A stretch of DNA of 64,000 nucleotides. Origin: Asticcacaulis sp. AND118 (lineage in GTDB: Bacteria > Pseudomonadota > Alphaproteobacteria > Caulobacterales > Caulobacteraceae). Location of the stretch: positions 62,001-126,000 of the forward strand of contig NZ_CP084912.1 in NCBI RefSeq assembly GCF_020535245.1, given 5' to 3'. Of this stretch, positions 4,954 through 62,200 are shown piece after piece (position 1 is the first letter of the stretch; every line of letters starts with the position of its first letter). The translations under genes and the position numbers were made by a program. The notes below the pieces were generated by a model, which had not been told where the DNA came from, made no database searches, and saw nothing but the letters and a program-made list of their open reading frames with translations.

Positions 4954-7900
4954 TCACACGCTGTAGGGTCGTCTGGGGTGCACGCGTTGGTGGAGGGCGT
5001 GCATGGCGACGAACATCTCGGTCCAGCCGCCCATGCGCACGCGCAGCAGGTCATAGGCTTCCGGTGAGCCTGCCGCCGACAGGAAGGTCTGCTGACCCGC
5101 GACCGTAACGGTCAGCACGTTCGACCCCGCGCCACCGGTAAAGGCCTCCAGAATCTCGACCAGCCGTTCCACCGGCATGGATTCCGCCACATTCAGGTCG
5201 ATTGGCGCGCCATTGGCGTAGCCGAAGGCATCGGCGGAGCGCAACCCTTCCAGCACGGCCACCCCATCGGCCTGTTGCCGCGAATCCGCCGTCGCCGGCT
5301 GATCCACAGGCGAAGGCGCCGGCGACATGTCGGTGGCCAGAGGCTGCGCCGACAGACGCCCGTCCGCCGAAGCCGCGCAGCCTAACCCCTGTTCCACATA
5401 GCTGGCGAAGGTGCCGACGCCGGGCTGCATCGAAAAACCGCCGAACGGATGTTTTACCGTGCCGAAACGGGCCGCCGCCTGCTCGTACAGGGCCGCCAGA
5501 GCCGGGCGCGGCCTGGCCATGACGTCCATTGCCACCGTCGCCACGCGCGCCGCGATACGGTTGCCGAAGGCGTCGATATCGGCATGACCCCGCCCCCAGC
5601 GCGGCAGAGACAGGGCTATGGTGCGCAGGTGCCGGAAACGCCGGGCTGTTTCGGCCACGCGCGGATGGTCTGAAGTCAGCAGGGTCGAATGGACCAGCGG
5701 GTCGATCATGGACTCCCCCCAGTTACATAGCAGGGCCTGAACCAGCTCCGGCAGACTGGTGACCGCAGTTTCCGGCTGGAAACACAGGCTCCGCAGCGCC
5801 CACAGGGCATTGATCGTATTAGCCAGCGAGGTGAAGCACGGGCCGAAAACATTATAGCGCGCCCCGCCCCCATAAATGTCCTGCCCCTTTTCGAGGCAGT
5901 CATTGATGAACAGGTCGAGCAGCGGCGCGGGACAGACCGGCTCCATGCGCCCGAAATCGGCGACCGTGCCCTCCATCTGCCGTGCGTAAGACCATTCGAG
6001 GTGCCGAAAGAACAACGCTTCCAACTCCTCGTAGGCGGTGATCTCGCTGGCGGGCGGCGAGCGGAAAGACAGGCTCTTGCCGAACAGGTCCACAGGTCCC
6101 GCCGATTGAATCTGCCGGCCCTGATTGAGGGCGTATTCCAACGGCTGAAGCAGAACGACTCCACCGAGGTGGAACCAGTTGGCCCCAACGAACTGCGGCT
6201 CGTAACAGCCGTCGGCCGCATAGTCGTGGGCGTCTTCGGGGCGCACCTGGGCATTCCAGCGCGACGCATTCGGGGAATCCGGGCGTAGAGCTATGCCCGA
6301 ACCGGCCATCGCCGGTATGATCTTGTCGTCGTTCATCAATATGGGGCTGGCCCCGCCGCTAAGCTGCCCCAGCGCCGCCTCGCGCAGCAAGCGGTCTCGC
6401 CATTCCGCCGGCATGTCCTTGCCCACACGCAGGGACAGGACCGGGGCATTGAACGGCAGGCGGGCCGCGGCGCGCAGACAGGCCAGGGTGACGTCGGAAT
6501 ATTCCCAGCTACCGTCCGGATTGCGCCCGCCGACGGTGAGCTGCTGAATCCACTGATTGACGCTCTGCCCCTTGGGATAGGGGCCGGCGCGGTTGCCCAT
6601 GGCCATATTGCCAAGTTGCTGACGGTCGTCGATGAAGATGCGGTTGAGCAGGACCTTTTCCGCCAGCTTGATCCAGAAGCCGTCGATCGCGTCCTGCAAC
6701 TCGGCTTCTGACAGATTCTCGCGTTCCTGAAACGGGCGCAGCAGACGGTCGAGCCGCCCGACGGCCACCGGCTCGCCGCACAGATGCAGGGTCGCGTGGC
6801 CGGAAAAGACCAGTTGCAACGCCTCCAGCACGGTGCGCGGCGCGTTTCCGGCCGCCAGCCAGCGCAGACGGTTTTCGAGGGCCGTCAGGTTCTCACGCTC
6901 GATGGTCTGGGTCGGCGTCAGTGTCTGCGCCTTGGCCTTAACCGTATCGGCCAGCCCTTCCAGATATTCGGCCAGCCCCTTGGTGGCCAACCGCGCGCCC
7001 ATATAGAAATCGACAGCCTTAGCGGCGCGGTCAGGCTCATGCACCTTCAACGCCGCCTCCGCCGCGTCGATGCGCGCGAACAGGCCCGATATACCCTTGT
7101 CGAGCAGGTCCTGATAACCCGGCACCACGTGTCCGACACCGGAATTGGGCCCCAGCCCCAGACTGAACCAGCGATAACGTTCCTCATCGCCGTCATCGTC
7201 GCGCACATAGTCGATGAAGTAGCGCCCTTCGGCCAGCGACTGCGCCGGCATGGACCCGGCCAGCAGGTCGAGCGGGTGGATGTCGCAGGTATCCATGCCG
7301 CCATTGCCACGCCGGCCCACCCCATCGAGACGCGCGGCCAGATTGCAGACGAGCCGGTTGGCCCAGCCGGCGCGCACCGCCACCGACGCCCTCATGATGA
7401 GGTCCGCCGCTTCTTTTGCCGAGGCCCCGCTACGCAAGGCGTCGCGTTCGGCCTCATTGCGCGGATCGGCGAAGAAACGCTCCAGTTGAGGTCGCAGAGG
7501 CGCGAGATCATCAGGCTTCTGCGCGCGGAACCAGGTATCGTCCCAGCGCGCGAACATCCGCTCCAGCAGGTATTGCAGGCGCAAGGAAGGCGGCTTCAAC
7601 CCTTGCGCCGTTTCATCCTCCCGCGTACCCATGGCGAAGAGATAATCCTGATGATTGTAGTACATCAGACCGTTCGCCGAACGCTTCTCATAATGACGGT
7701 TCAGCCGCGACCAGTCGATTCCCGGAAACCGCCGCCAGTCGCTGAATGGTTGGGTGCTGCGCACATGGGCGTCTTCGATGATCGCCTCCGCCCCCAGCTC
7801 GCGGATGCTCGGCACATAGAAGAAGCCGCCGAGGTCTGAGCGCGCCGCCGATCCGGCCAGCAGCCGGTCGCGGGCAAATTCGCCATCATCGGCATTGCCG

Positions 7901-8934
7901 AACTGCGAGCGCAATATGGCTTCGATGCGCGACGCCGCGCGCGCCATGCCGATGAAATAGATGCCTTTTTCGTCGCCCGCCGAGCTACCGCCCGCATGAT
8001 CGATCAGCGGCGTCCCCTTGTCCGCCTCGTCGCGCTCACCGAACGGCAGGCCGATACGCAGCAGTTTGATGGTGTGACCGTCGGCATCGTGCGTATGGGC
8101 GCTGCGGATGTGCGAACGCGCGTCGAAGGAGGGGACCAGTTCGTCGGTGAACTGACGGCGGCCGACCATGGCCTCCATCTCGCTGGCCGCCTTGGAATGC
8201 AGCTCCGCCCAGTTGAGACGGAAGCGCTGGGTGAACAGGAAGGCGCCGCCGGCGGACAGCGGGTCTTCGTGCCCGACCAGCACGTGCTCAAGGATTTCGA
8301 CGGGCGAGGCCGGATTGCGCAAATTCTCCTTGTAACGCCCGCCCAGAACGCGTCCGCCCTTGCCGCTGGTCGGCACAGTCGGGTTATTGCGGCTGTGCAT
8401 ATCGACGCGATAAATATCCTTTGCGGCGATCCCCAGCATCTCCAGTTCGGCGCTCAGGAAATCGGCCAGCGCCGCAACCGGCGCGGCCTCGTCGGCCTTG
8501 ACGATGAACCATGCCCCCGCCTCGCTGTCGCGCAGCACGCCGCCCGAACGTTCGATGACCCGCGCGCTGAAGAGCGTGTCACCCGGTTCGTCGAAGGCCA
8601 GACCGCTGGGCACGGGCCGCCCCTCCGCTTCACAGAAACCGGACCAGACGCGCAGTGAAAAGGCCAGACACACGCTGGCGTGCAGGCTGCCGAAGTCCTG
8701 GTGAATCCTGCGCCGGGCCTGCGAAAGTATATGGGCGAAAGCCGCGCGATCCGCTGCGGGCGGTAGGTCGAAAACCGACAAGGCGCATTGCCAGGGCGCG
8801 GGATAGATGAGTCCCGGCTGCATCCAGCTCAGAGTCTGGTTGGCGCGATCCCTCAGGCGCTGCTCGATCGTATCTTCGTCGCGATCGGCGAAATAACAGG
8901 CCGCCGGCACGTTCCAGTGTTGCGAAGTGCTCAT
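4954..8934 (-). CDS. DyP-type peroxidase fused to glycyl radical enzyme
   Basis: This 1326-residue protein joins two unrelated redox enzymes. Residues about 1-390 are a DyP-type haem peroxidase: GGRYKENLRNP (198-208), FTQRFRLNW (234-242), and RSHIR with the likely haem-ligand His275. Residues about 600-1326 are a glycyl radical enzyme: LTVGGRNPDGS (799-809), the active-site Cys910 in DGCYEP, and a C-terminal RMGGW (Gly1303 as radical site) followed by the usual basic tail. The GCxEP form of the Cys motif is typical of the dehydratase/lyase branch rather than pyruvate formate-lyase. Residues 390-600 are unassigned. The ATG has a very strong GGGAGGGG site. No signal peptide is apparent. No radical-SAM activase lies in the window. 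A haem domain might form or protect the radical, but that is inference. Confidence 0.88.
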   Translation of the reverse strand: MSTSQHWNVPAACYFADRDEDTIEQRLRDRANQTLSWMQPGLIYPAPWQCALSVFDLPPAADRAAFAHILSQARRRIHQDFGSLHASVCLAFSLRVWSGFCEAEGRPVPSGLAFDEPGDTLFSARVIERSGGVLRDSEAGAWFIVKADEAAPVAALADFLSAELEMLGIAAKDIYRVDMHSRNNPTVPTSGKGGRVLGGRYKENLRNPASPVEILEHVLVGHEDPLSAGGAFLFTQRFRLNWAELHSKAASEMEAMVGRRQFTDELVPSFDARSHIRSAHTHDADGHTIKLLRIGLPFGERDEADKGTPLIDHAGGSSAGDEKGIYFIGMARAASRIEAILRSQFGNADDGEFARDRLLAGSAARSDLGGFFYVPSIRELGAEAIIEDAHVRSTQPFSDWRRFPGIDWSRLNRHYEKRSANGLMYYNHQDYLFAMGTREDETAQGLKPPSLRLQYLLERMFARWDDTWFRAQKPDDLAPLRPQLERFFADPRNEAERDALRSGASAKEAADLIMRASVAVRAGWANRLVCNLAARLDGVGRRGNGGMDTCDIHPLDLLAGSMPAQSLAEGRYFIDYVRDDDGDEERYRWFSLGLGPNSGVGHVVPGYQDLLDKGISGLFARIDAAEAALKVHEPDRAAKAVDFYMGARLATKGLAEYLEGLADTVKAKAQTLTPTQTIERENLTALENRLRWLAAGNAPRTVLEALQLVFSGHATLHLCGEPVAVGRLDRLLRPFQERENLSEAELQDAIDGFWIKLAEKVLLNRIFIDDRQQLGNMAMGNRAGPYPKGQSVNQWIQQLTVGGRNPDGSWEYSDVTLACLRAAARLPFNAPVLSLRVGKDMPAEWRDRLLREAALGQLSGGASPILMNDDKIIPAMAGSGIALRPDSPNASRWNAQVRPEDAHDYAADGCYEPQFVGANWFHLGGVVLLQPLEYALNQGRQIQSAGPVDLFGKSLSFRSPPASEITAYEELEALFFRHLEWSYARQMEGTVADFGRMEPVCPAPLLDLFINDCLEKGQDIYGGGARYNVFGPCFTSLANTINALWALRSLCFQPETAVTSLPELVQALLCNWGESMIDPLVHSTLLTSDHPRVAETARRFRHLRTIALSLPRWGRGHADIDAFGNRIAARVATVAMDVMARPRPALAALYEQAAARFGTVKHPFGGFSMQPGVGTFASYVEQGLGCAASADGRLSAQPLATDMSPAPSPVDQPATADSRQQADGVAVLEGLRSADAFGYANGAPIDLNVAESMPVERLVEILEAFTGGAGSNVLTVTVAGQQTFLSAAGSPEAYDLLRVRMGGWTEMFVAMHALHQRVHPRRPYSV

Positions 8935-8964: not shown

Positions 8965-9975
8965 TCACTCCGCCTGAAGCGCGAGACGGAAGCCGATATT
9001 GGCCGCTGTGGTTTGTTCGTCGGCGCGGCGGCGTTTGGCGACGCGCAGATAGGGCAGCTCCCAGTCGAACCCGCCGCCGCGATGCACGCGCTGGCTTCCG
9101 GTCGATGGCCCCTGCGGGTCCTGCGCCGGACCGCTGAGATAATAGTCGGCGGCGTAACGGTCGGCGCACCATTCCCAGACGTTACCGGTCATGTCATGAA
9201 GCCCGAAGCCGTTGGCCCTGTATCGCCCGACCGGGGCCGTATGGACGAAGCCGTCATCGACGGATTTCAGCACCGGATATTTCCACTGCGGATAGGCAGC
9301 GGCGAAGCGCGCATCGGCTATATTGCCCTCCTGACCCGTCACCGGCTCGTGCTCGCCCCAGCTATAGACGGCATGGTCGGGACCGCCGGCGGCGTATTCC
9401 CATTCCGCCTCGCTCGGCAGGCGGAAGGGCCGCCCCGTCTTGTCGCGCAGCCACTGGACGAAGGCTGCCGCATCCGTCCAGCTTACGTGCACGACCGGAT
9501 GGTCGTCGCCCGCCTTCCAGCCTGTATGTTCCCAATCCAGCCCATTGCCGGGGCCCCACTGACCGCTCTGACGGCCTTGCGCATCCGTAGTCAGGGTATA
9601 GTCTCCCAGACTCTCACCCACGCGCTCCGCCGTGGTGACATATCCCGTTTCCGCGACGAACAGCCTGAAGGCGGCCACGGTCGTCTCGGTGCTGGCCAGC
9701 CAGAAATCCCCGCTGAGCGTGACCGTGCGCGACGGCGCTTCGTCGGCATACCATTTGCGATCGGCTTCGGGCTGCGCTTCGCCGAAGCGGCTGCCCATGA
9801 TGAAAGACCCAGCCGGTATGCGCACGAAACGCAGACCGGTGACCGGTTCGACAAAGCTGCGGGGTAACGTGACGGAGGGACTCGTGGCGGCGGTCTGCGG
9901 CGGAGCCGCGGACGCACTCAATGCGCCCGTCGCCAGCATCACCGACAGGAGGAGGGTTTTCAGGGACATGACCAT
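8965..9975 (-). CDS. exported SUMF1/FGE-fold protein lacking the cysteine pair
   Basis: This 336-residue protein has a signal peptide (cleavage near SASAAPP) and a complete SUMF1 (formylglycine-generating enzyme-like) fold: FVRIPAGSFIMGS, HPVVHVSWTDAAAFVQWL, RLPSEAEWEYAA, GLHDMTGNVWEWC, and RVHRGGGFDWE near the end. The paired cysteines that bind copper in true formylglycine-generating enzymes, normally after the RGGS motif, are absent. It is therefore probably not a sulfatase activator and may act as a structural or other modifying SUMF1 protein, like PvdO-type members. It starts 6 bases after the DUF2278 gene and ends 30 bases before the peroxidase-radical enzyme gene, so all three appear to be one operon. 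Confidence 0.9.
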   Translation of the reverse strand: MVMSLKTLLLSVMLATGALSASAAPPQTAATSPSVTLPRSFVEPVTGLRFVRIPAGSFIMGSRFGEAQPEADRKWYADEAPSRTVTLSGDFWLASTETTVAAFRLFVAETGYVTTAERVGESLGDYTLTTDAQGRQSGQWGPGNGLDWEHTGWKAGDDHPVVHVSWTDAAAFVQWLRDKTGRPFRLPSEAEWEYAAGGPDHAVYSWGEHEPVTGQEGNIADARFAAAYPQWKYPVLKSVDDGFVHTAPVGRYRANGFGLHDMTGNVWEWCADRYAADYYLSGPAQDPQGPSTGSQRVHRGGGFDWELPYLRVAKRRRADEQTTAANIGFRLALQAE

Positions 9976-9981
9976 GGCTCT

Positions 9982-11052
9982 TTAGAAGACGATGGTCCAG
10001 CCCGGGTGGCGCGATTGCTCCCGACTGTAGGCGACGCCGTCGACCTTCAGACCCGTGTCGTCCAGCAGGGTGATGATCCCGCCCCGGTTGGTCAGGGCCG
10101 CAGGCTGGACGATCGGCACCACGACGACCCCGCCTGCCGCGATTTCACCCGCCAAAGCCGTCCGCACCTTATTGGTGTCGGCGATCGTCCACCCTTCGAG
10201 CGATATCGCGTGCGGCGCGGTGTTGATCAACGTGACGGTCTCGTTTTCCGGGGACTGAGTCCCGTTGACGAGGGCGGCGATGATGCGCACCAGACCCTGC
10301 GGTTCCTCGGTGTCGGGCAGATCGATGCGCGTCGGCGCCGCCGGGGGCAGGGCGGGATCGGGGCGCGCCGGCGGCGGCACGCTGTAACCGTCGGCAAGAC
10401 CCACGAGGCGATGACCGGTCTGGTCGTCCGTATGCCAGGCCTGCGACTGAAATTTCAGGAATATGCCGACCCACTCGTTCTGATCCGGGAACTGCACCAG
10501 CAGGCCGCCGTCCTGCCAGATACCGTCGTCGCCGGTAAAGCGGCCGACATTGCCCTGGTTCATATGGATGTCGTGTATGCCGTTGCCCGGCAGGAAACCG
10601 AAGAACTTGTCCTTCTTGCCGCCTTCCGGTCCCCAGCGCTCGCCGAAGGCATAGACCATCGCTTCTTCGTCGCCCATGGCGCGCTGCATGATGCGGTCGA
10701 TCTTTTCGTTGAGATCGTTATCGACGCCCGGCACATCGAAGGGCAGAGGCCGCATCTTAGAGCGGTCGAACAGGTTGCCGCGAATATAGTCAAGTGCGCC
10801 GCTATTGGGTGTAGCCGCCAGGCGAGTAAAGCCCGGCGACAGACCCGACACGCGGTCGATGACCGGGTGCCTGAATTCTTCGACGACGATATATTCGACT
10901 TCGGACGGCGACAGGGCCGACTGCACATTGATGGCGATACGATAGTCGGTCGTTTCGTCGACCAGATGGACCTGATAGTGCGCATTGCGGCTTGTGCCCA
11001 GCCGTACCTCTACCGCCCTGCCCTTGAGGACGCCATAACTTCTGAGTGGCAT
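9982..11052 (-). CDS. DUF2278 protein with C-terminal lamin-tail domain
   Basis: This 356-residue protein is the first gene of the operon that holds the SUMF1 protein and the peroxidase-radical enzyme fusion. Residues about 1-215 match the DUF2278 (YukJ-like) family, with LPGNGIHDIHMNQGN and WQDGGLLVQFPD as recognisable parts. A proline-rich linker follows (about 225-245). Then comes an immunoglobulin-like lamin-tail domain (about 260-356) containing VTLINTAPHAISLEGWTIAD. No signal peptide is seen. The function of DUF2278 is unknown; lamin-tail domains commonly mediate binding. It might be a scaffold or substrate-binding partner of the fusion enzyme, which is inference from gene order only. 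Confidence 0.85.
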   Translation of the reverse strand: MPLRSYGVLKGRAVEVRLGTSRNAHYQVHLVDETTDYRIAINVQSALSPSEVEYIVVEEFRHPVIDRVSGLSPGFTRLAATPNSGALDYIRGNLFDRSKMRPLPFDVPGVDNDLNEKIDRIMQRAMGDEEAMVYAFGERWGPEGGKKDKFFGFLPGNGIHDIHMNQGNVGRFTGDDGIWQDGGLLVQFPDQNEWVGIFLKFQSQAWHTDDQTGHRLVGLADGYSVPPPARPDPALPPAAPTRIDLPDTEEPQGLVRIIAALVNGTQSPENETVTLINTAPHAISLEGWTIADTNKVRTALAGEIAAGGVVVVPIVQPAALTNRGGIITLLDDTGLKVDGVAYSREQSRHPGWTIVF

Positions 11053-11150: not shown

Positions 11151-14100
11151 CTACCAGATCGCCTCGTTATTGGATTTGAGGATTTCCTTCGGCTCGCCGT
11201 CGAGCGTCAGAACCACCTTACCCTCAGTGATCGCGGCGGGCAGCCGCACCGACACGGTTTGCGCCTTGGGCAGAAGGTCCAGCGGCGCGGCCAGCTCCCC
11301 AAAGCGCACGCGGGCGATTTCGCGACCTTGTGCATCGCTGACAACCGCGGTTCCGGCCGGAGTCGGTTTTGCCCCTAACGAATGAACGCGGATGCTTAAG
11401 CTGCGACCCTTGAGGTGTATGCTCTCCGTCGACACGGCGATGTCGGGACGGTTTGCCGTCTCCTCTCCCGCTGACACGCGCTCGAAGCGATAGGTGACGC
11501 TTTGGCGCGACGGCAAATCGAGGCGCAGGTCCGCCCCGCGCTCCAGTTCAGCCATGCGCGTCCGTCCCATGCCATCCGTGACGCGCCATTGGCCCGGGGC
11601 CATCTGATCGGCGGTCAGGATCGCCGTCGCCGCGCTATTCGCAAAGCTGTAGGCGCTGACCGTAAAGGCGGTCGGATGACCGGAATCGACCAGCACCGCC
11701 ACATCCTCGCCCTTGGCGCCCTCGAAGCGCCAGCGCAGCAGATTACCGGGATAGTAGACATTGCGCCGGTGCGCCACGCCGCCCAGTCGCGTGCGCTGCA
11801 GAAGCTCGTTCGGCACGCTGACGCGATCGGACCACAGATGCGCTTCGGTCAGGACCGGCATACGCCGCGTATTGGCCTCGACCTCCTTTTCGTAGAGCCC
11901 GCTCAGCAGCGCCGCATCGCCGGTCTTCTGCCAGCGCACCAGCGCCGCGAAATCCTTATCGCCTATGCCGCCCAGATTGCGGTCGATGGGCGCGCCCTTA
12001 CCGCCGATCTCGCCTGCCACGATGCGGTTGGCCAACTCAGGCCCGCCCGGCGCGCGCGTCATCAGGTCGGCATTGATCTGCGACAGGGCCGCCAGATTGC
12101 CGCGTTTGATATCGCCTTCAATCGGCCGCAGATAGCGGGCGTCACCGGTCCAGCTATAGGCCGCCCAGAACAGGCTGCCTGCGCTCTGGATGCCGTTACC
12201 CGACGTCTTGTCGGTCGCCCATTCGATATCGCTGGGGAAGGACCAGTTGCCCTTATCGTCCGGTTTCCCGTGCGCCAGCCAGCCGTCCACCGTCTCCAGC
12301 AACAGTTTCCGCGTCTGCGGCGCGCCGTTATGATCGACCAGCAGCAAGCCCGGATGGGTGATCAGCAGGCCGAAGTGCCGCTGCCAGCCGAGATGGCCTT
12401 CGCGCGCGATGTGCGTGCCGGAGAACCAGCCGGAGACCAGATGGCGGTGCCCGGCGGGATTGACCTCGAACAGGCGCGGATATTCGCGCGCCACTGCCAT
12501 GGCGCGCTCAAGCGCGACCGGATCACCAGGGCTCATCTGCAGCGCCTGCGCCACGGCATTGATGCCCTCTTCGTAGGAGTGCAGGTCGTCCGTGACGATG
12601 CGGCTGAGCCCCCCGCTCCACATTTCATTCTTGTAGGTCGCATCCAGCAATCTGCGTTGTGACGCGATGTAGCGCTGCGGATCGACACCCATCAGAACCA
12701 GCGGCACCCAGGCATTCATCAGATCGGTATCGTCGCTCAGGCCCCCGCCGAATTCACCGTTTTCGACCTGACGATTGTCGATCCACCAGTCGACGAAACG
12801 CTTGTAAAGCCGCAAATCCTCGACCTGACGCCAGGCCCAAAGGGGCGCGCCCGCGGGCGGCTGCGACTGTTGAAACGGCGGGCCGTAGGGCTGTTCGGGA
12901 TTCTTCTCAACCCAGTAGGCGCGTGCGGTTTCATTGCCCGGATCGACGCGCAGCACATCGGAAATGTCGCGCTCGAACCGCGTCCACAGCGGATAGGCGC
13001 GGATATTGGGCTGTTCCTCGACGAAAAAGGCCAGATTGTCGCGCGCCTGCTCCAGCCGATCGGCGACGTGCTCGGCCTTCGCCTCCGCCGCTGGCTTGAA
13101 CACCAGCCGCACCTGCGTCCCGTTCAGCGCCGCGGCGTCGAAATCGCGATCGGAGGCGAGGCTGATCATCAGGCTGGCGGTCGGCGGCAGGATGCGATCG
13201 CGCGTATCGAGCCACAGGGTGCGCGCTTCGCCGGGTTTGACCGCCACATTGACGTCCATCAGGTCGCGTTCGGGCCAGTTCGGATCGCGCAGGCGGATAT
13301 TCAGCGGGATGAGTTCGCCCTGCGACGGCGTGACCTTCAGCGCCGGCAGATCGAGGGCGATGCCGTCGAGGCCCGCCTCCATATTCGCCCAGCCATAGGC
13401 AAAGCGCGTCGGCGCTTCGCCCGGCCGCGTATCGCGGAAATCGCCGGGGATCAGCAGGTGCACGATCGGCGCACAGCCTACAACCGCCTTACCCGGTTTA
13501 CGCGGCGCGCCCGCCGGCAGGGCCACGGCGACGCTGCGCTCGGACGGCACATACCGCCCACCGATGAAGCCGCGCAGATCATCGAGCGCCGGATAAAGCC
13601 CGGCATCCGCCGAGGCGTCGACCGTATAGCGCAGGGTGGCGTAGCCTTCCGGCACCTCGCCCTTGGTCACGTGATAGGCGGCGATCTCCTGTATCGGCGT
13701 TTCCGGCAGGGTGGTCTCAAACCGCAGCTTGCCGCCCCTATGCTCCGGCACCACGGTCGAGGTACGCTCGACGCCGGGCTTGCGCGCGAACAGCGCCTTG
13801 CCGTCCCGCGTCAGCGTGCCGAAGGCCGCGCCGGTGATCTCGATGCGGTTCCACGGCTCGTCCGGCAGCGTCAAATCGTAGGCCTTGCCGCCTTCGGAAT
13901 AGACGTTCCAATCGGGCAACTGGAAATAGTCGTTTCGCCCCTCAAGGCGCGAACGGTTATAGACGCCGGGCCAGGTGGTTTCGCGGATACCGTCCGCGCC
14001 GCGAAACATTTTAGCCTTCAGGTCGCGCGTATCGGTGAACTCGACCTTGCGGATGCGCGTCACCGGATCGCTGAGATAGGTTGCATCGGGCGTCTCGAAA

Positions 14101-14879
14101 CCATGCCGCTGCAGCCAGAGGCTCCGGTCGAACGTCAAGGACGGGAGGGCGGGCGCGCCGTTCGTCGCCAGCGCCGCCACGCCGGCATCGTCCAGTCGCC
14201 GATCATAGACGCGGATCTCGTCGATGTCGCCCGAACGGCGGAAATTGTACATCGAATGGACCTGATAGGGCGACAGAATGCGCTGGAACGGCCCGAAGCC
14301 GTAAAGGCCCATATCGTAATGCGCTTTCAGTGTCTTTTCGGCGGCGGCCCGGCCGTTGATCCACAGCTTGACGCCCTGCGCCTCGTCCCAAGCGAAGGCC
14401 ACATGCACCCAGTCGTCCTTCGCCGGGACACGGTCCATTTTGAACGACACGCGCGAACGGGCCAGATTGGTGTCGGTGACGAAGGCGTCGAAACCGTGCC
14501 CGTTCCAGTCGATACGCAGCCACACCATGTCCCAACTGCTGCTTTCCGAGGCGGCGACGCGGAACAACGGAAACGGCTCGCTGCCCAAATCGTCGCGGGG
14601 CCGGAAGAAGAAGGACAGGGTGCCGCGCTGCGCCTGAATATTGCCGGGCGCCGACCACGCCAGCGCCAGATTGTCGTTGAGCCTCAGCGCTGGCCCGCTC
14701 TGACCGTCCGGCGTCGTCGTGGCCCCTACGGCGAAGATCGGCTGGGCCTGCCCCGCAGCGGCATCGGCGCTCAGCCCATTGTCGCCCGACAGGGAGAATA
14801 ACAGACCCTTATCGGCGGTTTGCGCCGCGGCGGGCACGGCGGCGAGCCACAAAAGGGACAGACAGGCGGGGATTTTCAT
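11151..14879 (-). CDS. large secreted LamG-containing protein, probable carbohydrate-active enzyme
   Basis: This 1242-residue protein has a signal peptide (cleavage after AVPAAAQ). It begins with a LamG/concanavalin-like domain (about residues 25-245) and continues with beta-rich segments. An aromatic, helix-rich region (about 690-1000) has features of an (alpha/alpha)6 toroid, with repeated WW, DD and HR pairs as in polysaccharide lyases and family-type glycosidases. Beta-sandwich modules complete the C-terminus. The overall layout fits a polysaccharide-degrading enzyme, but I cannot place it in a named family. AAGGAAG lies in front of the ATG. It may be controlled by the adjacent double-TetR regulator or stand alone. 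Confidence 0.75.
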   Translation of the reverse strand: MKIPACLSLLWLAAVPAAAQTADKGLLFSLSGDNGLSADAAAGQAQPIFAVGATTTPDGQSGPALRLNDNLALAWSAPGNIQAQRGTLSFFFRPRDDLGSEPFPLFRVAASESSSWDMVWLRIDWNGHGFDAFVTDTNLARSRVSFKMDRVPAKDDWVHVAFAWDEAQGVKLWINGRAAAEKTLKAHYDMGLYGFGPFQRILSPYQVHSMYNFRRSGDIDEIRVYDRRLDDAGVAALATNGAPALPSLTFDRSLWLQRHGFETPDATYLSDPVTRIRKVEFTDTRDLKAKMFRGADGIRETTWPGVYNRSRLEGRNDYFQLPDWNVYSEGGKAYDLTLPDEPWNRIEITGAAFGTLTRDGKALFARKPGVERTSTVVPEHRGGKLRFETTLPETPIQEIAAYHVTKGEVPEGYATLRYTVDASADAGLYPALDDLRGFIGGRYVPSERSVAVALPAGAPRKPGKAVVGCAPIVHLLIPGDFRDTRPGEAPTRFAYGWANMEAGLDGIALDLPALKVTPSQGELIPLNIRLRDPNWPERDLMDVNVAVKPGEARTLWLDTRDRILPPTASLMISLASDRDFDAAALNGTQVRLVFKPAAEAKAEHVADRLEQARDNLAFFVEEQPNIRAYPLWTRFERDISDVLRVDPGNETARAYWVEKNPEQPYGPPFQQSQPPAGAPLWAWRQVEDLRLYKRFVDWWIDNRQVENGEFGGGLSDDTDLMNAWVPLVLMGVDPQRYIASQRRLLDATYKNEMWSGGLSRIVTDDLHSYEEGINAVAQALQMSPGDPVALERAMAVAREYPRLFEVNPAGHRHLVSGWFSGTHIAREGHLGWQRHFGLLITHPGLLLVDHNGAPQTRKLLLETVDGWLAHGKPDDKGNWSFPSDIEWATDKTSGNGIQSAGSLFWAAYSWTGDARYLRPIEGDIKRGNLAALSQINADLMTRAPGGPELANRIVAGEIGGKGAPIDRNLGGIGDKDFAALVRWQKTGDAALLSGLYEKEVEANTRRMPVLTEAHLWSDRVSVPNELLQRTRLGGVAHRRNVYYPGNLLRWRFEGAKGEDVAVLVDSGHPTAFTVSAYSFANSAATAILTADQMAPGQWRVTDGMGRTRMAELERGADLRLDLPSRQSVTYRFERVSAGEETANRPDIAVSTESIHLKGRSLSIRVHSLGAKPTPAGTAVVSDAQGREIARVRFGELAAPLDLLPKAQTVSVRLPAAITEGKVVLTLDGEPKEILKSNNEAIW

Positions 14880-14951: not shown

Positions 14952-16199
14952 TCAGCGCACCTGCAGGGCGTCGAGCAGTTGGGTGATCAGCCGCCGCGCC
15001 TCTGCCGGGCGTTGCGCCGGCGACAGAACGCTGAGGTCACGCCCCAGACCCTGCGCAAAGGTCGAGACCAGCCCGGCGGCTTGTGGCCCAAGCGGACCCT
15101 GTTCGCGCGGCAGTCGGCTCAGCCGATGCAGGGTGGTCTGACCGCGCGAATAACGGATCATGGCGCCGCGGTCGCGCAGGCTTTCATCGCGCGCCGCCTG
15201 CGACAGCAGCGCCTCCATGGCCAGCGCGTCGGGTTGCCGCGCATCGGCGGCAGAATAGGCCGTCAGTCCCTCGATATAGGACTGGCGCGTCACCGGCGCG
15301 TCATCGGCGGTCAGGTGCGGGCGGGTCAGACGCAGATAGATATAGGCCCACGCCGCCGCCATCAGGTCGCCGGCGCTGGGGAAATGATAGGTCACCGCCC
15401 CCAGATTGAGCCCTGCCGTTTGCGCCACCGCCCGATGCGTCACCGCCGCAGCACCCTCGCGCCCCACAATATCGGCGGCAGCTTCGGCAATGCGTTCGTG
15501 CACCGAACCGGCCACCAGCACCGGAGCGGCGAAGCGCGCGGTTTCCACCCGCGCATAGTCGCGCAACGGTCCTTCGCCCGGATCGCCGGTCATCAGCAGA
15601 CGCGCCCAGGACAGGCCGCTTTCCGACAGGCAGGCGCGGTCGAAGGAACCGCGCCAGACGATGCGATGGAGAAAGGCCTCGCCCGTGAAGAAGACCCGCA
15701 CCAGATCGGCCTGCGGCCCCATTCCGGTCAGCGCGCAGGCTTCGTCCCAGAAGCGTTTCCACAAAGCCTGCCACTGGGCGTTGGCGTCGGCGAAGTCCGG
15801 CTGTCGCGCCGCCAGAATCTGACACTCGCCCCAGGCAAAGGCCAGATCGGCCTGCGACCGGCACCAGTCGTCGATGATTGCCGCCAGCAGATGCCCGAAG
15901 GCTTCCCCGCCATTAGCCGTGGCGTCGATACGGCCCATTTCGCTTAAGGTCCGCTCGCACCAAGCTGCGGCGTGTGCGATGGCGCGCCCCTGCGCCGAAC
16001 ATAACAACTGTTCAAATCCGCCAAAATAGTAGTTGATTTGCGAGGCCTGAGCGCCGGCGCTCTGACTGACCTGACGCGCACTCATCTGGGCGCGTCCGTG
16101 GCTACGCCACATGCCGGCAACCGCCCCAAGCAGCCGATCGGCCGCAGACACCTTAAGCGCTTCTGTCTCTTTATTATAGACGCTGTCTATAGTCTGCAT
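14952..16199 (-). CDS. tandem double-TetR transcriptional regulator
   Basis: This 415-residue protein carries two complete TetR units in one chain, about twice the usual length of 190-220. The first helix-turn-helix is at about residues 20-65 (MSARQVSQSAGAQASQINYYF) and the second at about 236-282 (VTHRAVAQTAGLNLGAVTYHF), each followed by a helical ligand or dimer region. It would probably act as an intramolecular dimer. It is divergent from a TonB receptor and phosphatase unit, the most likely target. A perfect palindrome covers codons 3-9. If translation really starts at the GTG of codon 17, the palindrome would lie in the leader and serve as an operator. Confidence 0.88.
   Translation of the reverse strand: MQTIDSVYNKETEALKVSAADRLLGAVAGMWRSHGRAQMSARQVSQSAGAQASQINYYFGGFEQLLCSAQGRAIAHAAAWCERTLSEMGRIDATANGGEAFGHLLAAIIDDWCRSQADLAFAWGECQILAARQPDFADANAQWQALWKRFWDEACALTGMGPQADLVRVFFTGEAFLHRIVWRGSFDRACLSESGLSWARLLMTGDPGEGPLRDYARVETARFAAPVLVAGSVHERIAEAAADIVGREGAAAVTHRAVAQTAGLNLGAVTYHFPSAGDLMAAAWAYIYLRLTRPHLTADDAPVTRQSYIEGLTAYSAADARQPDALAMEALLSQAARDESLRDRGAMIRYSRGQTTLHRLSRLPREQGPLGPQAAGLVSTFAQGLGRDLSVLSPAQRPAEARRLITQLLDALQVR
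16175..16191. promoter_or_regulatory. palindrome TATAGAC-GCT-GTCTATA, candidate TetR operator
   Basis: A perfect 7-bp inverted repeat with a 3-bp spacer lies at the 5' end of the double-TetR gene. A further GTCTATAG half-site occurs at 16238-16245. Size and symmetry fit a TetR-family autoregulatory operator. Confidence 0.5.
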
Positions 16200-34873: not shown

Positions 34874-35965
34874 CTAACCTTCCGACACTTCAAGGAACAA
34901 CCGTACCAGTTTTGTATTGATGTAGTAGTTGCTTTTGCCTGACCGGTGTTTCTCCACAAAGCCTTGCTCAGCCAGCGTATCGAGGTAGCGCGCCGCCGTC
35001 TGGCGGGTCACGTTCAGATCGTTCTGAACGTACTCAATCCGCGTGTAGGGGTGACGAAACAGATTGTTCAGCAAATCCTGGCTGTAAAGCTTCGGCAATT
35101 TGTCGCGCATCTGATGCTTTGCACTGGCCATTTGATCGCGGATACCTTCGACCAGGCGCACAGTGGTAACAGAGGTTTGCGCCACGGCTTCAAGCATGAA
35201 AACGACCCAGTCTTCCCATGCGCCGTCGTCGCGCACCGCTTGGAGCAGGCGATAATAGTCGCTCTTATGCCTGGTAATATGCCGTGACAGATAGAGGATC
35301 GGAATATCCAGAAGGCCCGTCCGCGTCAGATAAAGCACATTCAGTATCCGACCGATCCGTCCATTCCCATCAGGAAAGGGGTGGATGCTTTCAAACTGAT
35401 GATGAATCAGCGCCATTTTGATTAACGGATCAAGGGGCGACAGTTCGTCATCATTGATGAACCGCTCCAGTGCCCGCATGTGATGTAAAATCGCCTGCCC
35501 ATCCTGCGGCGGTACAAAGACAGTTTCACCGGTCGTTTCATTCCTCAACGCGGTACCCGGCATGACACGGAAACTGTCGTCTCGTCGCTTGAGTAATCGG
35601 AACATCTCGATCAGGACAGCGTTGGTGATGAGGCCGTTTGTCCGGCGCAAGCGCTCATGGCCCAACCGTACGGCATCCCGATAAAGCGCTACCTCCTTGG
35701 CGGCGGGAGATTGCGGGTCGTCGGGAAAGAGGTCGGCCTGAAACAGCTCATCCTGAGTGGTGACGATATTCTCGATTTCGGATGAAGCCTTCGCTTCCTG
35801 CAAGGCCAGCGTGTCGATCAGTATGCCTTGATTGGGGATAGTCCTCGCCTGCCCTTTTAGATCGGCCAAGGCACGGCTGGCCATAGTCAGCGCCCTATAG
35901 ACGCGCACAGTCTCCAGTTCGACAGGTGGCGGCAAATCGGGAATGGCGTAGCTTTGAACCAGCAT
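34874..35965 (-). CDS. class II Fic family protein with C-terminal winged helix
   Basis: This 363-residue protein has the complete FIC motif HPFPDGNGRIGR (His195), a flap region (VMPGTALRNETTGETVFVPP), and an N-terminal inhibitory motif SSEIEN (residues 61-66, Glu65), typical of class II Fic proteins. The last 75 residues form a winged-helix domain (VQNDLNVTRQTAARYLDTLAEQG) that probably binds DNA. Fic enzymes transfer AMP from ATP to protein hydroxyls, and the inhibitory glutamate keeps them off until needed. A double palindrome at the promoter suggests autoregulation by the winged helix. It stands alone. Confidence 0.95.
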   Translation of the reverse strand: MLVQSYAIPDLPPPVELETVRVYRALTMASRALADLKGQARTIPNQGILIDTLALQEAKASSEIENIVTTQDELFQADLFPDDPQSPAAKEVALYRDAVRLGHERLRRTNGLITNAVLIEMFRLLKRRDDSFRVMPGTALRNETTGETVFVPPQDGQAILHHMRALERFINDDELSPLDPLIKMALIHHQFESIHPFPDGNGRIGRILNVLYLTRTGLLDIPILYLSRHITRHKSDYYRLLQAVRDDGAWEDWVVFMLEAVAQTSVTTVRLVEGIRDQMASAKHQMRDKLPKLYSQDLLNNLFRHPYTRIEYVQNDLNVTRQTAARYLDTLAEQGFVEKHRSGKSNYYINTKLVRLFLEVSEG

Positions 35966-59222: not shown

Positions 59223-62200
59223 ATGATCAGGATTACGGCGCAGCGCCGCAGGCTGGCCTTGGCCTCGGTGTCACTTCTGGCGGTATGGACGGGTGCGGCG
59301 ATGGCGCAAGAAACGCCCGCCGCTCAAACCCCGGCGCAGGCCGCCGACGGCAACGAAACCGTGGTGGTGGTGACGGGTTTCCGCCGCTCCTACGCCGATG
59401 CTGTGAAGGTCAAGCGCGACACCATCCAGATTTCGGACAGCATTTCGTCGGACGGTCTGGGCCGTTTCCCCGACCTCAATGTCGGCGAAGCCATCCAGCG
59501 CATCCCCGGCATCCAGATCAACCGCGAAGCCGATGCGCGCAACGCCACCATCTCCCTGCGCGGTCTGCCCGGCTCGTTTGCGCGGACCACGCTGAACGGC
59601 GGGGCCTTCGCCGATCCGATCCTTAACGGCTCGACGCCGCTGGGGGCTTTCGCGTCGGACATCTTCTCGTCGATCACGGTCATCAAGTCGCCGGCGGCGT
59701 CCGACCTCGCGGGCGGCCTGTCGGGCAATATCGACCTGCGCATCGCGCCGGCCCTGTCGCGCAAGGACGGCGGTTTCGTCAAGCTGGCCTATGAGTACAA
59801 TTCGCTGGGCGGCCTCGGCAGCCCGTTGGCCTCGATCGGTTATAATAAGCGCATCTCCAGCGACTTCGCCGTGTTCGGCGTGCTCGCCTTCAAAGACGAA
59901 AAGTTCCGCCGCGACTCGATTACGGTCAATTCGTGGGGCAATCGTCTGGGTGCGATCCAGTACGGCAATCAGGCGGCGTGGTCGGCGACCAACACCACGG
60001 CCAACCCGGAATTCAATGCCTTGATGGCGCAGTATCCGGGCGGCGTCTACTACCCCAGCCAGACACGCCAACTGGTGCGTTTCAACCGCGGCACGCTGTT
60101 GTCAGGCGCGACGGGCTTTGAATGGAAACCGGCGGAAAACTGGAAGATCGGCGCCAACGCCTTCTATACCGAGCGCAATCTCGACGAATCGACCAACCAC
60201 CTCCTCTATGTCGATGCCGGTCCGGGTAACAACACCAATACGGTGCTGACCGCGACTTCGGCGGTGGCGAAGATCACCAATATCGGCACGCCCTATTTGG
60301 TCGATACGCCCAACGGGCCGCGCGCCTATATCAACAGCTTCACGGCGGAAAACCTCAACACCTTCGATTCGGTGCGTTCGGAACCCGGCGTCAACAAGAC
60401 CTGGGCCTTCAACCCCAGTGTCGAATTCGCCAATGACGACTGGCGCGTCAAGGCGGCGATCACGATTTCCGAAGCCACGGCCGAAGCCAACCAGATCGAG
60501 TTCGACATTGTGCAGAACCCGTACCGTAATCTCGGTTCGGCGGGCCTGAATGGCATCAAGGCGATTGTGGGGCTGGGCGGCGCGGACCTGTCCAACTATT
60601 CGGTCCTGCTGACCACGCCCAAGGCGACGCACATCCCCGTCGGCGGTTATCCGATCCCGGCGGCGGCCAGCGCGGCGACCCAGGCCGGCGCGCCCATGCC
60701 GGGCCAGTCGGCGACCACGGCGGGCGACCGTTTCGGCATTACCGGCACCAATGGCAAGGCGGTCAATACGCTCGATTCGGCGCAGTTCGACGCGGAACGT
60801 TTCTTCCATGACAACAGCTTCCTCACCAGCCTCCAATTCGGCGTGCGCAAACAAACGGGCGAGTTCACCTCTTCAGGATCGCGCAACACCTCGCTGGGCG
60901 CGGCGGCCGACAAGATAACGCCGCAGATGGCGTCGCAGCTCAAATACACCAGCGACTTCTTCGGCGGCGAAGCGCCGGGCTATACCAGCAACTGGATGGG
61001 CGTCGACATCAAGGCCGTTCTGGCAGCCATTACGCCGGTCAACACCAATCCGCGCTCGATCAGCAACCCTAACGGCCTGCCCGATCAGTTCAAGTTCGAC
61101 CCGGCTATCGGCGTCTTCCTGACCCCCTACGGTCTGGTCAACAACTATTGGGACGGCAATTACTGGAACAACAATTTCAGCTTCAAGAGCGACATCGTTT
61201 CGTCCTATGTGATGGCGAAGTTCAAAAGCGAGGTGTTCTCGATCCCGGTGCGCGGTACCTTCGGCGTGCGGTACGAATCCTCACGTAACACGGTGACGGC
61301 GCTCAACTGCGTGAACTGTACGGCCGCCCTGTCGACTGCCGCGGGTGCCGTCAATCACCGCCTGACGACGCGCACGACATATCAGGAATACAGCTACGCC
61401 CTGCCGTCCTTCATCGTCGCCGCCGACCTGACCGAAAAGCTGGTCATGCGCTTCGCCGCCTATCAGACCTATGTCCGACCGCAGCCGCGCGACACCGTGC
61501 CGATCACCTTCGTGCAGACGCCGGTCGATCAGACCCCGCCGGTCGATCCGATCTACACCGTCACCATCGGCGCGACCGACCTCAAGCCCTATACCGCCGA
61601 CTCGCTCGACCTGTCGTTTGAATGGTATAATCGTCCGGGCGGCATGGTGGCGCTGGCCCTCTATGAAAAGAAGGTCGACGGCTATATCGGACCGATCACC
61701 GACCAGAGCGTTCTGTGCCCGGCGAACGGTCTGATCGACGGCTTCGACTACGGCCTCGGTACGCTGAGCATCGACAACAGCGCTGGTACGCCGCGTTGCG
61801 TCTCGTCCAACCAGTTTGTCGGCGCCGGTGGCACGCTCAAGAACGCTACGGTCAATGTCAGCGGCCGCACCAACCAGAACCCGATGACCGTGCGCGGGGT
61901 CGAGTTCAGCGTCCAGCAGAACCTCGACTTCCTGCCGGGCTTCTGGAAGAATTTCGGCGGGGCGTTCAACGTCTCCTATACGACGATTTCGGGTCGCGAC
62001 ACAGCGGGTAACCGCATCACGCTCCCCAGCGTGTCGAAGAACAACCTCAACCTGATCGGCTATTACGAGACCAAAAAATTCGGCGTGCGCATGGTCTATA
62101 ACTGGCGCGACAAGTACGACCTGGCCGCCGGCAACTCCTTCGTCGGCGACGCCCGCACCGTCAAGGCGCGCAGTCAACTCGACGCCTCGGCCTCATACAA

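Follow-up and report, generated by a model that had tools for sequence, protein, structure and literature searches.

A DyP-type peroxidase fused to a glycyl radical enzyme in bacterial genomes without a recognizable activase

To our knowledge, characterized glycyl radical enzymes (GREs) receive their radical from a radical-SAM activase and are destroyed in air. Here we describe a gene of Asticcacaulis sp. AND118, a member of an aerobic genus, that encodes a DyP-type heme peroxidase and a GRE on one chain; it lies in a stretch of 64,000 nucleotides (nt) analyzed as a whole and here called the window (positions 62,001 to 126,000 of NZ_CP084912.1). The DyP-GRE architecture is already known in print, since a 2016 paper reports a DyP-PFL fusion from Chaetomium cochliodes, a fungus, and its relatives (Zamocky et al., PMC5041501). 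In its excerpts, that paper states that DyP-PFL proteins occur in distantly related prokaryotes and eukaryotes, infers transfer between proteobacteria and ascomycetes, reports that expression of the fungal gene rises 3-fold under H2O2 and 18.5-fold under peroxyacetic acid, and terms the significance of DyP-PFL elusive. The fungal protein, which we liken to ours by description rather than by sequence, likewise has an N-terminal DyP part (called type B) and a C-terminal PFL/glycyl radical part; its host has a putative PFL activase, CHGG_03160, as the same excerpts report, whereas the four bacterial genomes considered here have no activase above cut-off. Among the literature matches listed, only PMC5041501 describes the fusion, and a term search of the excerpts of PMC9064869 and PMC8197335 returned no mention of it; subscription papers and supplements lay outside the search. 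The first-pass annotation of this DNA, made from the letters alone, knew of no characterized example; the fusion had in fact been described, but as far as our literature searches reach it is uncharacterized. What is new here is a GRE-DyP clade without a recognizable activase and a set of four bacterial fusions in two subfamilies.

The gene occupies a single open frame:

4954..8934, minus strand: DyP peroxidase–GRE fusion, 1326 amino acids (Pfam and NCBIfam matches; 78% identical homologue over residues 22-1326)

The frame begins with ATG and has zero internal stops on the minus strand, while a plus-strand reading of 4954-8934 was rejected because it contains stops. The first-pass annotation had given these coordinates correctly but without a strand, and its picture of a DyP domain and a full GRE in one protein is borne out by the intact frame, the TIGR01413 and PF02901 matches, and the codons of Cys910 in DGCYEP and Gly1303 in RMGGW, both placed where it had put them. 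A genome search for the fused architecture, which it had proposed, yielded four bacterial fusions. Chimeric assembly is an unlikely source of the fusion, because a 1342-amino-acid homologue that is 78% identical occurs in the independent record of Pseudomonas sp. SDI (genome G061) and two further fusions of 1209 and 1210 amino acids occur in genomes G305 and G1205. The host genome (G000) comprises 4.05 Mb in 4 contigs, the window being a stretch of contig C3, and is 99.9% complete. Structure prediction from a two-row alignment gave a mean pLDDT of 30.9 for residues 127-1326 and 37.1 for residues 1-400, and the models were discarded.

The two parts of the protein and their key residues are as follows:

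4957..7737, minus strand: GRE part, residues 400-1326 (PF02901; alignments to solved GREs up to residue 1312; tree)
6205..6207, minus strand: active-site (thiyl) Cys910 within DGCYEP (paired in alignment with GCVEP of glycerol dehydratase, 1r8w; invariant in 4/4 fusions)
6199-6201, minus strand: Glu912 of DGCYEP (invariant in 4/4 fusions)
5026..5028, minus strand: Gly1303 of VRMGGW, the radical-site residue (paired in alignment with VRVAGY from solved GREs; invariant in 4/4 fusions)
7780..8820, minus strand: DyP heme peroxidase domain, class-B-like, residues 39-385 (TIGR01413; nearest solved relatives)
8326..8328, minus strand: Glu203, at the place of the distal catalytic Asp of DyPs (alignment to solved DyPs)
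8110..8112, minus strand: His275, putative proximal heme ligand (aligned with the His of 9obr and 7bok; invariant in 4/4 fusions)
8056..8058, minus strand: Arg293, putative distal Arg (aligned with the Arg of 9obr, 7bok, and 8u4z; invariant in 4/4 fusions)

The GRE part combines a PFL-like barrel, a mid-barrel GCxEP Cys, and a C-terminal radical-loop Gly in a variant loop. Pfam model PF02901 (PFL-like) matches residues 575-1133 with 294.2 bits (cut-off, 24.3). Every NCBIfam GRE model that matched, including those for choline lyase, hydroxyproline dehydratase, and sulfopropanediol dehydratase, fell under its own cut-off (best, TIGR01774 with 146.9 versus 678.2), so the substrate class of the window GRE is not among these models. 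Its best solved relative is 1r8w (E = 3.9e-27). With the B12-independent glycerol dehydratase and diol dehydratases (1r8w and 5i2a) it shares the GCxEP active site and the GVGHV motif, but the GHS of glycerol dehydratase reads GEP in the window, the window loop is VRMGGW, and no activase was found for it. The C terminus also matches GrcA3 below threshold (19.3 bits; cut-off, 158). GrcA/YfiD is an autonomous glycyl radical cofactor, a GRE accessory tied to oxygen damage that relies on the PFL activase, whereas the window GRE has a peroxidase attached.

The DyP domain matches TIGR01413 over residues 39-380 (162.9 bits; NCBIfam cut-off, 100.5) and the Pfam model Dyp_perox_C over residues 206-377 (60.4 bits; cut-off, 20). 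Its best solved relatives include 9obr, 7bok, and encapsulin-associated DyPs. It resembles the class-B DyPs (DypB, encapsulin-associated DyPs, and YfeX), which are among these relatives, in the His and Arg of the heme site; we take the domain to be class-B-like, with His275 presumably the proximal ligand and Arg293 presumably the distal Arg. At the position of the GXXDG motif, the window protein reads RYKEN (with Glu203), the Pseudomonas protein RFKEN, G305 RFRDA, and G1205 RFIDG. Heme binding is plausible, because His275 and Arg293 are kept with Glu203 replacing the distal Asp. The first-pass annotation had held that its activation idea would fall if the pocket could not bind heme; the two conserved residues favor a pocket that could bind heme, and Glu203 may matter here.

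The fusions form a clade of their own among GREs. When 25 GREs were placed in a maximum-likelihood tree, a 100/100 branch set the four fusions, together with the first piece of a Hymenobacter GRE, apart from the 20 others; the position of Hymenobacter inside the clade is not fixed, and the tool warned of long branches and of the composition of the window sequence. When the window and Pseudomonas proteins are set against those of G305 and G1205, the GRE parts are 36-38% identical and the DyP parts 25-27% identical. Invariant in all four fusions are H275, R293, H602, E721, C910, E912, R1300, G1302, G1303, W1304, and a C-terminal RRPY. The radical loop reads VRxGGW in the four fusions and in the Hymenobacter GRE but [VI]RVAGYS in 19 of the 20 ordinary GREs, a departure that could be expected if no activase must read the loop.

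The Hymenobacter member lies on a plasmid record of Hymenobacter cellulosilyticus (NZ_CP095048.1, L027, 11590-15400), where an unfused GRE, 33% identical, is followed 11 nt on by a DyP gene. This GRE is annotated as two genes owing to a frame break, and the C-terminal part of the DyP is in another frame; the breaks in both genes are perhaps sequencing errors. The first piece of the Hymenobacter DyP has its best match among deferrochelatases/EfeB and no meaningful BLASTP match to the window DyP, whereas the DyP parts of the fusions are similar to DypB and to encapsulin-associated DyPs. Two DyP types thus appear to be tied to one GRE clade, a class-B-like type by fusion and an EfeB-like type by gene order, the latter in a single record with frame breaks. 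All five clade members examined (the four fusions and Hymenobacter) have a heme peroxidase partner.

No recognizable activase was found in the fusion genomes. The activase profile TIGR02494 scored above cut-off in 0 of the 4 fusion genomes (G000, G061, G305, and G1205) and, in the same search, in 19 of 20 ordinary-GRE genomes, a comparison of few genomes in which a single family supplies 10 of the 20 and two of the fusion genomes, G061 and G1205, are draft assemblies. The first-pass annotation had called for such a check. These 20 genomes supplied the ordinary GREs of the tree, and four more from the phylum sample with a C-terminal GRE match only (G077, G108, G159, and G265) were left out; the exception, G1297, in which TIGR02494 stayed below cut-off, has a GRE without the usual motifs. 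Partial matches under the cut-off of 174 bits reached 37 bits in G305 and 21.6 bits in G000, and the profile was likewise below cut-off in G435, which holds a decayed copy. All 12 radical-SAM proteins of the window genome match other families above cut-off (MoaA, MiaB, BioB, LipA, HemW, RimO, HemN, RlmN, MtaB, PA0069-type, UDG-linked, and QueE). The absence of an activase that had been noted for the window therefore holds for the whole genome as far as profiles tell, and the matching activase elsewhere that would have undone the activation idea was searched for without any being recognizable. Profile scans covered 8 of the 12 radical-SAM proteins encoded by Pseudomonas sp. SDI and gave no activase match at an E value of 1e-15; we take the other four to resemble RimO, LipA, BioB, and RlmN. 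Five of the 10 radical-SAM proteins of G305 were scanned. Among them L083 comes closest to an activase, with 58 bits against the PFLA profile (cut-off, 232), but it scores 641 bits as an AmmeMemoRadiSam enzyme; the remaining five were assessed from their sequence motifs. The search in G1205 used TIGR02494 only. In G000, G061, and G305 alike, PF02901 picks out a single protein, the fusion.

A recurrent DyP partner, intact radical residues, a missing activase, and a changed radical loop are what one would expect had the peroxidase taken over from the activase; the same four features fit less well with a protective DyP, with two successive reactions, or with a GRE that has lost its radical. The response of the fungal gene to both peroxides, the lone PF02901 protein of three fusion genomes, and the low ratio of nonsynonymous to synonymous substitution between the window and Pseudomonas copies, given below, also favor the takeover. 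In the mechanism we propose, the DyP heme would react with H2O2 to give Compound I, which, directly or via a Tyr/Trp relay, would generate a radical in the GRE barrel joined to it, either on Gly1303 or without that stage on Cys910. General heme and GRE chemistry would allow Compound I either to oxidize such a relay or to take the activated hydrogen from the glycine. The thiyl of Cys910 would next carry out an eliminase- or dehydratase-like reaction on a small substrate, Glu912 serving as base; this reaction class is assigned from the Cys-x-Glu motif only. A B-type DyP is reported to form tyrosyl radicals, suggesting long-range electron paths (PMC8154254, in excerpt). That DyP heme and H2O2 make the glycyl or thiyl radical instead of an activase, which would make this an activase-independent GRE of aerobic bacteria, is in our judgment a serious possibility, if a somewhat less than even one. 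The wider claim, which we put forward tentatively, is that glycyl radicals can be made otherwise than by a radical-SAM activase with S-adenosylmethionine, namely from H2O2 by a covalently attached heme peroxidase; this would permit GRE chemistry in aerobes and apparently came about with two DyP classes.

Several observations weigh against peroxide-driven activation. The peroxide route alone leaves O2 sensitivity unsolved, because glycyl radicals are cut by O2, as shown for PFL (PMC12338860, in excerpt). The putative PFL activase of the fungal host speaks against it as well (PMC5041501, in excerpt). Within the DyP domain, the fusions differ from class-B DyPs in that the GXXDG motif with its distal Asp is altered in 4/4 and the distal acid is Glu in 2/4 (window and Pseudomonas; Asp in G305 and G1205), besides being joined to a GRE. 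The activase comparison, as noted, draws on few and unevenly sampled genomes. Finally, a radical-SAM protein of the PA0069 family, which is annotated as no more than a hypothetical equivalog, occurs in 3/3 fusion genomes with named radical-SAM proteins (L010, L022, and L085) and could still be an unrecognized activase in these hosts. The PA0069 family is presumably common among proteobacteria; if so, it is unlikely to serve as a dedicated activase. The peroxide-linked idea of the first-pass annotation thus gains from the missing activase and the plausible heme site, while its central step, activation by peroxide, is our inference and the fungal host points the other way.

If the PA0069-type protein or another unrecognized radical-SAM enzyme did activate the GRE, the DyP might instead protect an ordinary GRE by removing H2O2 near the radical site. 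We regard this as unlikely but not negligible. It would agree with the fungal activase (PMC5041501, in excerpt), with the PA0069-type protein in G000, G061, and G305, and with the UDG-linked one in G000 and G061; against it stand the 0/4 versus 19/20 activase count and the fact that a DyP would leave O2, the main threat, in place. Alternatively, the GRE part may be a pseudo-enzyme that has given up its radical and now acts as a scaffold or senses peroxide or oxygen, which we consider unlikely. The missing activase, the unusual VRxGGW loop, and hosts that are presumably aerobic would suit such a role, but all four fusions retain the Cys, Glu, Arg, and Gly that make up the radical machinery, and between the subfamilies it is the GRE parts that are the better conserved.

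The genes around the fusion bear on a third alternative. Upstream of it, the window contains the following:

8965..9975, minus strand: FGE-sulfatase/SUMF1-like protein, 336 amino acids (PF03781, 194 bits; 30 nt upstream of the fusion)
9982..11052, minus strand: DUF2278 plus lamin-tail-like protein, 356 amino acids (PF10042, 264 bits; 6 nt beyond the FGE-like gene)
11151-14879, upstream of and in line with this cassette: LamG protein, 1242 amino acids (no match beside the Pseudomonas fusion)
14952-16199, in line with the cassette: TetR-type regulator, 415 amino acids, TetR_N at 237-282 (no match beside the Pseudomonas fusion)

The fusion, FGE-like, and DUF2278 genes travel together, since the same order is kept beside the Pseudomonas fusion (DUF2278 gene 74% and FGE-like gene 72% identical to those of the window), while the LamG, TetR, OEP, Hpt, and GGDEF genes of the window have no match in the 23.9-kb Pseudomonas locus; OEP here denotes an outer-membrane efflux protein encoded downstream of the fusion. 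The lamin-tail match in the DUF2278 protein (32.4 bits) is just below its cut-off of 34.3, and by eye the first half of the TetR-type regulator looks TetR-like too. The FGE-like protein is probably exported, its signal sequence having been judged by eye. True formylglycine-generating enzymes, we assume, carry a copper-binding Cys at the RGGGFDWELPYLRVAKRR stretch; the FGE-like protein is probably not a genuine one, because it has no Cys in that stretch. In the other subfamily, the gene after the G305 and G1205 fusions (L063:12473-13426 and L094:2042-3034) encodes a DUF2608 protein, 48% identical between the two and a second conserved partner; we take DUF2608 proteins to be HAD-like. A PF04185 phosphoesterase gene follows the DUF2608 gene in G1205, and a PLD-like gene and then a HAD-like gene follow the Hymenobacter pair.

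Such neighbors could mean that the protein holds two consecutive catalysts, the DyP oxidizing a substrate and the GRE barrel cleaving the product, or the reverse, in a channeled pathway. PLD-like, phosphoesterase, DUF2608, and FGE-like genes do adjoin family members as in a catabolic cassette, and the Hymenobacter pair consists of separate genes. However, the neighbors differ by subfamily with only the DyP constant, and a radical source would still be required, so that we find this arrangement rather unlikely as the explanation of the fusion.

DUF2278 was rejected as a marker of the system: five regions examined from 32 plasmid records with DUF2278 had no annotated DyP or GRE, in plasmid gene tables that are incomplete, and in the literature searched no paper naming DUF2278 was found. 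In one of the five, on a Comamonadaceae plasmid, the PLD-like protein beside DUF2278 (L028:7092-8765) is 35% identical over 592 columns to the one after the Hymenobacter pair (L027:15425-17206). The two may link DUF2278 indirectly to the GRE-DyP system, an unexplained lead. Elsewhere in the window, 34874-35965 encodes a SoFic-like Fic protein adenylyltransferase.

The fusions seem to be few and widely dispersed. In genome_contigs, the scan turned up a single locus, the Pseudomonas sp. SDI fusion, with its 78% identity over residues 22-1326. In the genus, family, and order of the host, 1 of 61 genomes matches, namely its own, and 0 of 24 same-genus genomes do. In the phylum sample, 67 of 398 genomes match at an E value of 0.001, nearly all with a DyP alone or a GRE alone; the same 398 include one further fusion (G305, 1209 amino acids) and one decayed fragment (G435). 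At an E value of 1e-20, the class sample of 385 genomes returned the host's own genome and G305, the 248 genomes of G305's order returned G305 and three others, and the 369 genomes of G435's class returned the G1205 fusion (1210 amino acids), the G435 fragment, and two other GREs. The phylum, class, and order samples overlap, and the counts are lower bounds because the phylum, class, G305-order, and G435-class scans scored no more than two first-look candidates from any one genome. The three further hits in G305's order (E values of 3e-50 to 1e-42) were rejected as family members because they group with ordinary GREs in the tree; one of their loci presumably is a microcompartment locus. The G435 fragment (contig C14, L064, ~9716-10303) is a stretch of the GRE part with stops, a remnant of a former copy. 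A phage origin was rejected: the matches in seven phage records are each confined to either the GRE or the DyP part, with no match spanning more than 80% of the query, and among 30 stretches of viral_contigs that match a pattern, none encodes a fusion relative. Plasmid records with a match number 121, of which the best 20 were listed. For window positions 16200-41000, the three best plasmid matches are Asticcacaulis plasmids, at ~86% identity over 25-28% of the query, with cyo oxidase genes. An acquired, probably plasmid-borne gene that needs an activase its hosts lack, and is inactive or marginal there, would accord with the 0/24 same-genus matches, the likeness of the window contig to Asticcacaulis plasmids, and the decayed G435 fragment, but it is improbable in view of a ratio of nonsynonymous to synonymous substitution (dN/dS) of 0.089 between the window and Pseudomonas copies, a rough value because dS, at 1.67, is near saturation, and of a missing activase that recurs across four hosts.

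Activation of the GRE by its own peroxidase is thus the reading we prefer. A GRE clade without a recognizable activase in the four fusion genomes searched makes the notion of a peroxide-made glycyl radical testable with a single purified protein. If it is true, GRE chemistry would be extended to aerobic conditions; if the peroxide route is false, this GRE clade would still depart from the activase rule.

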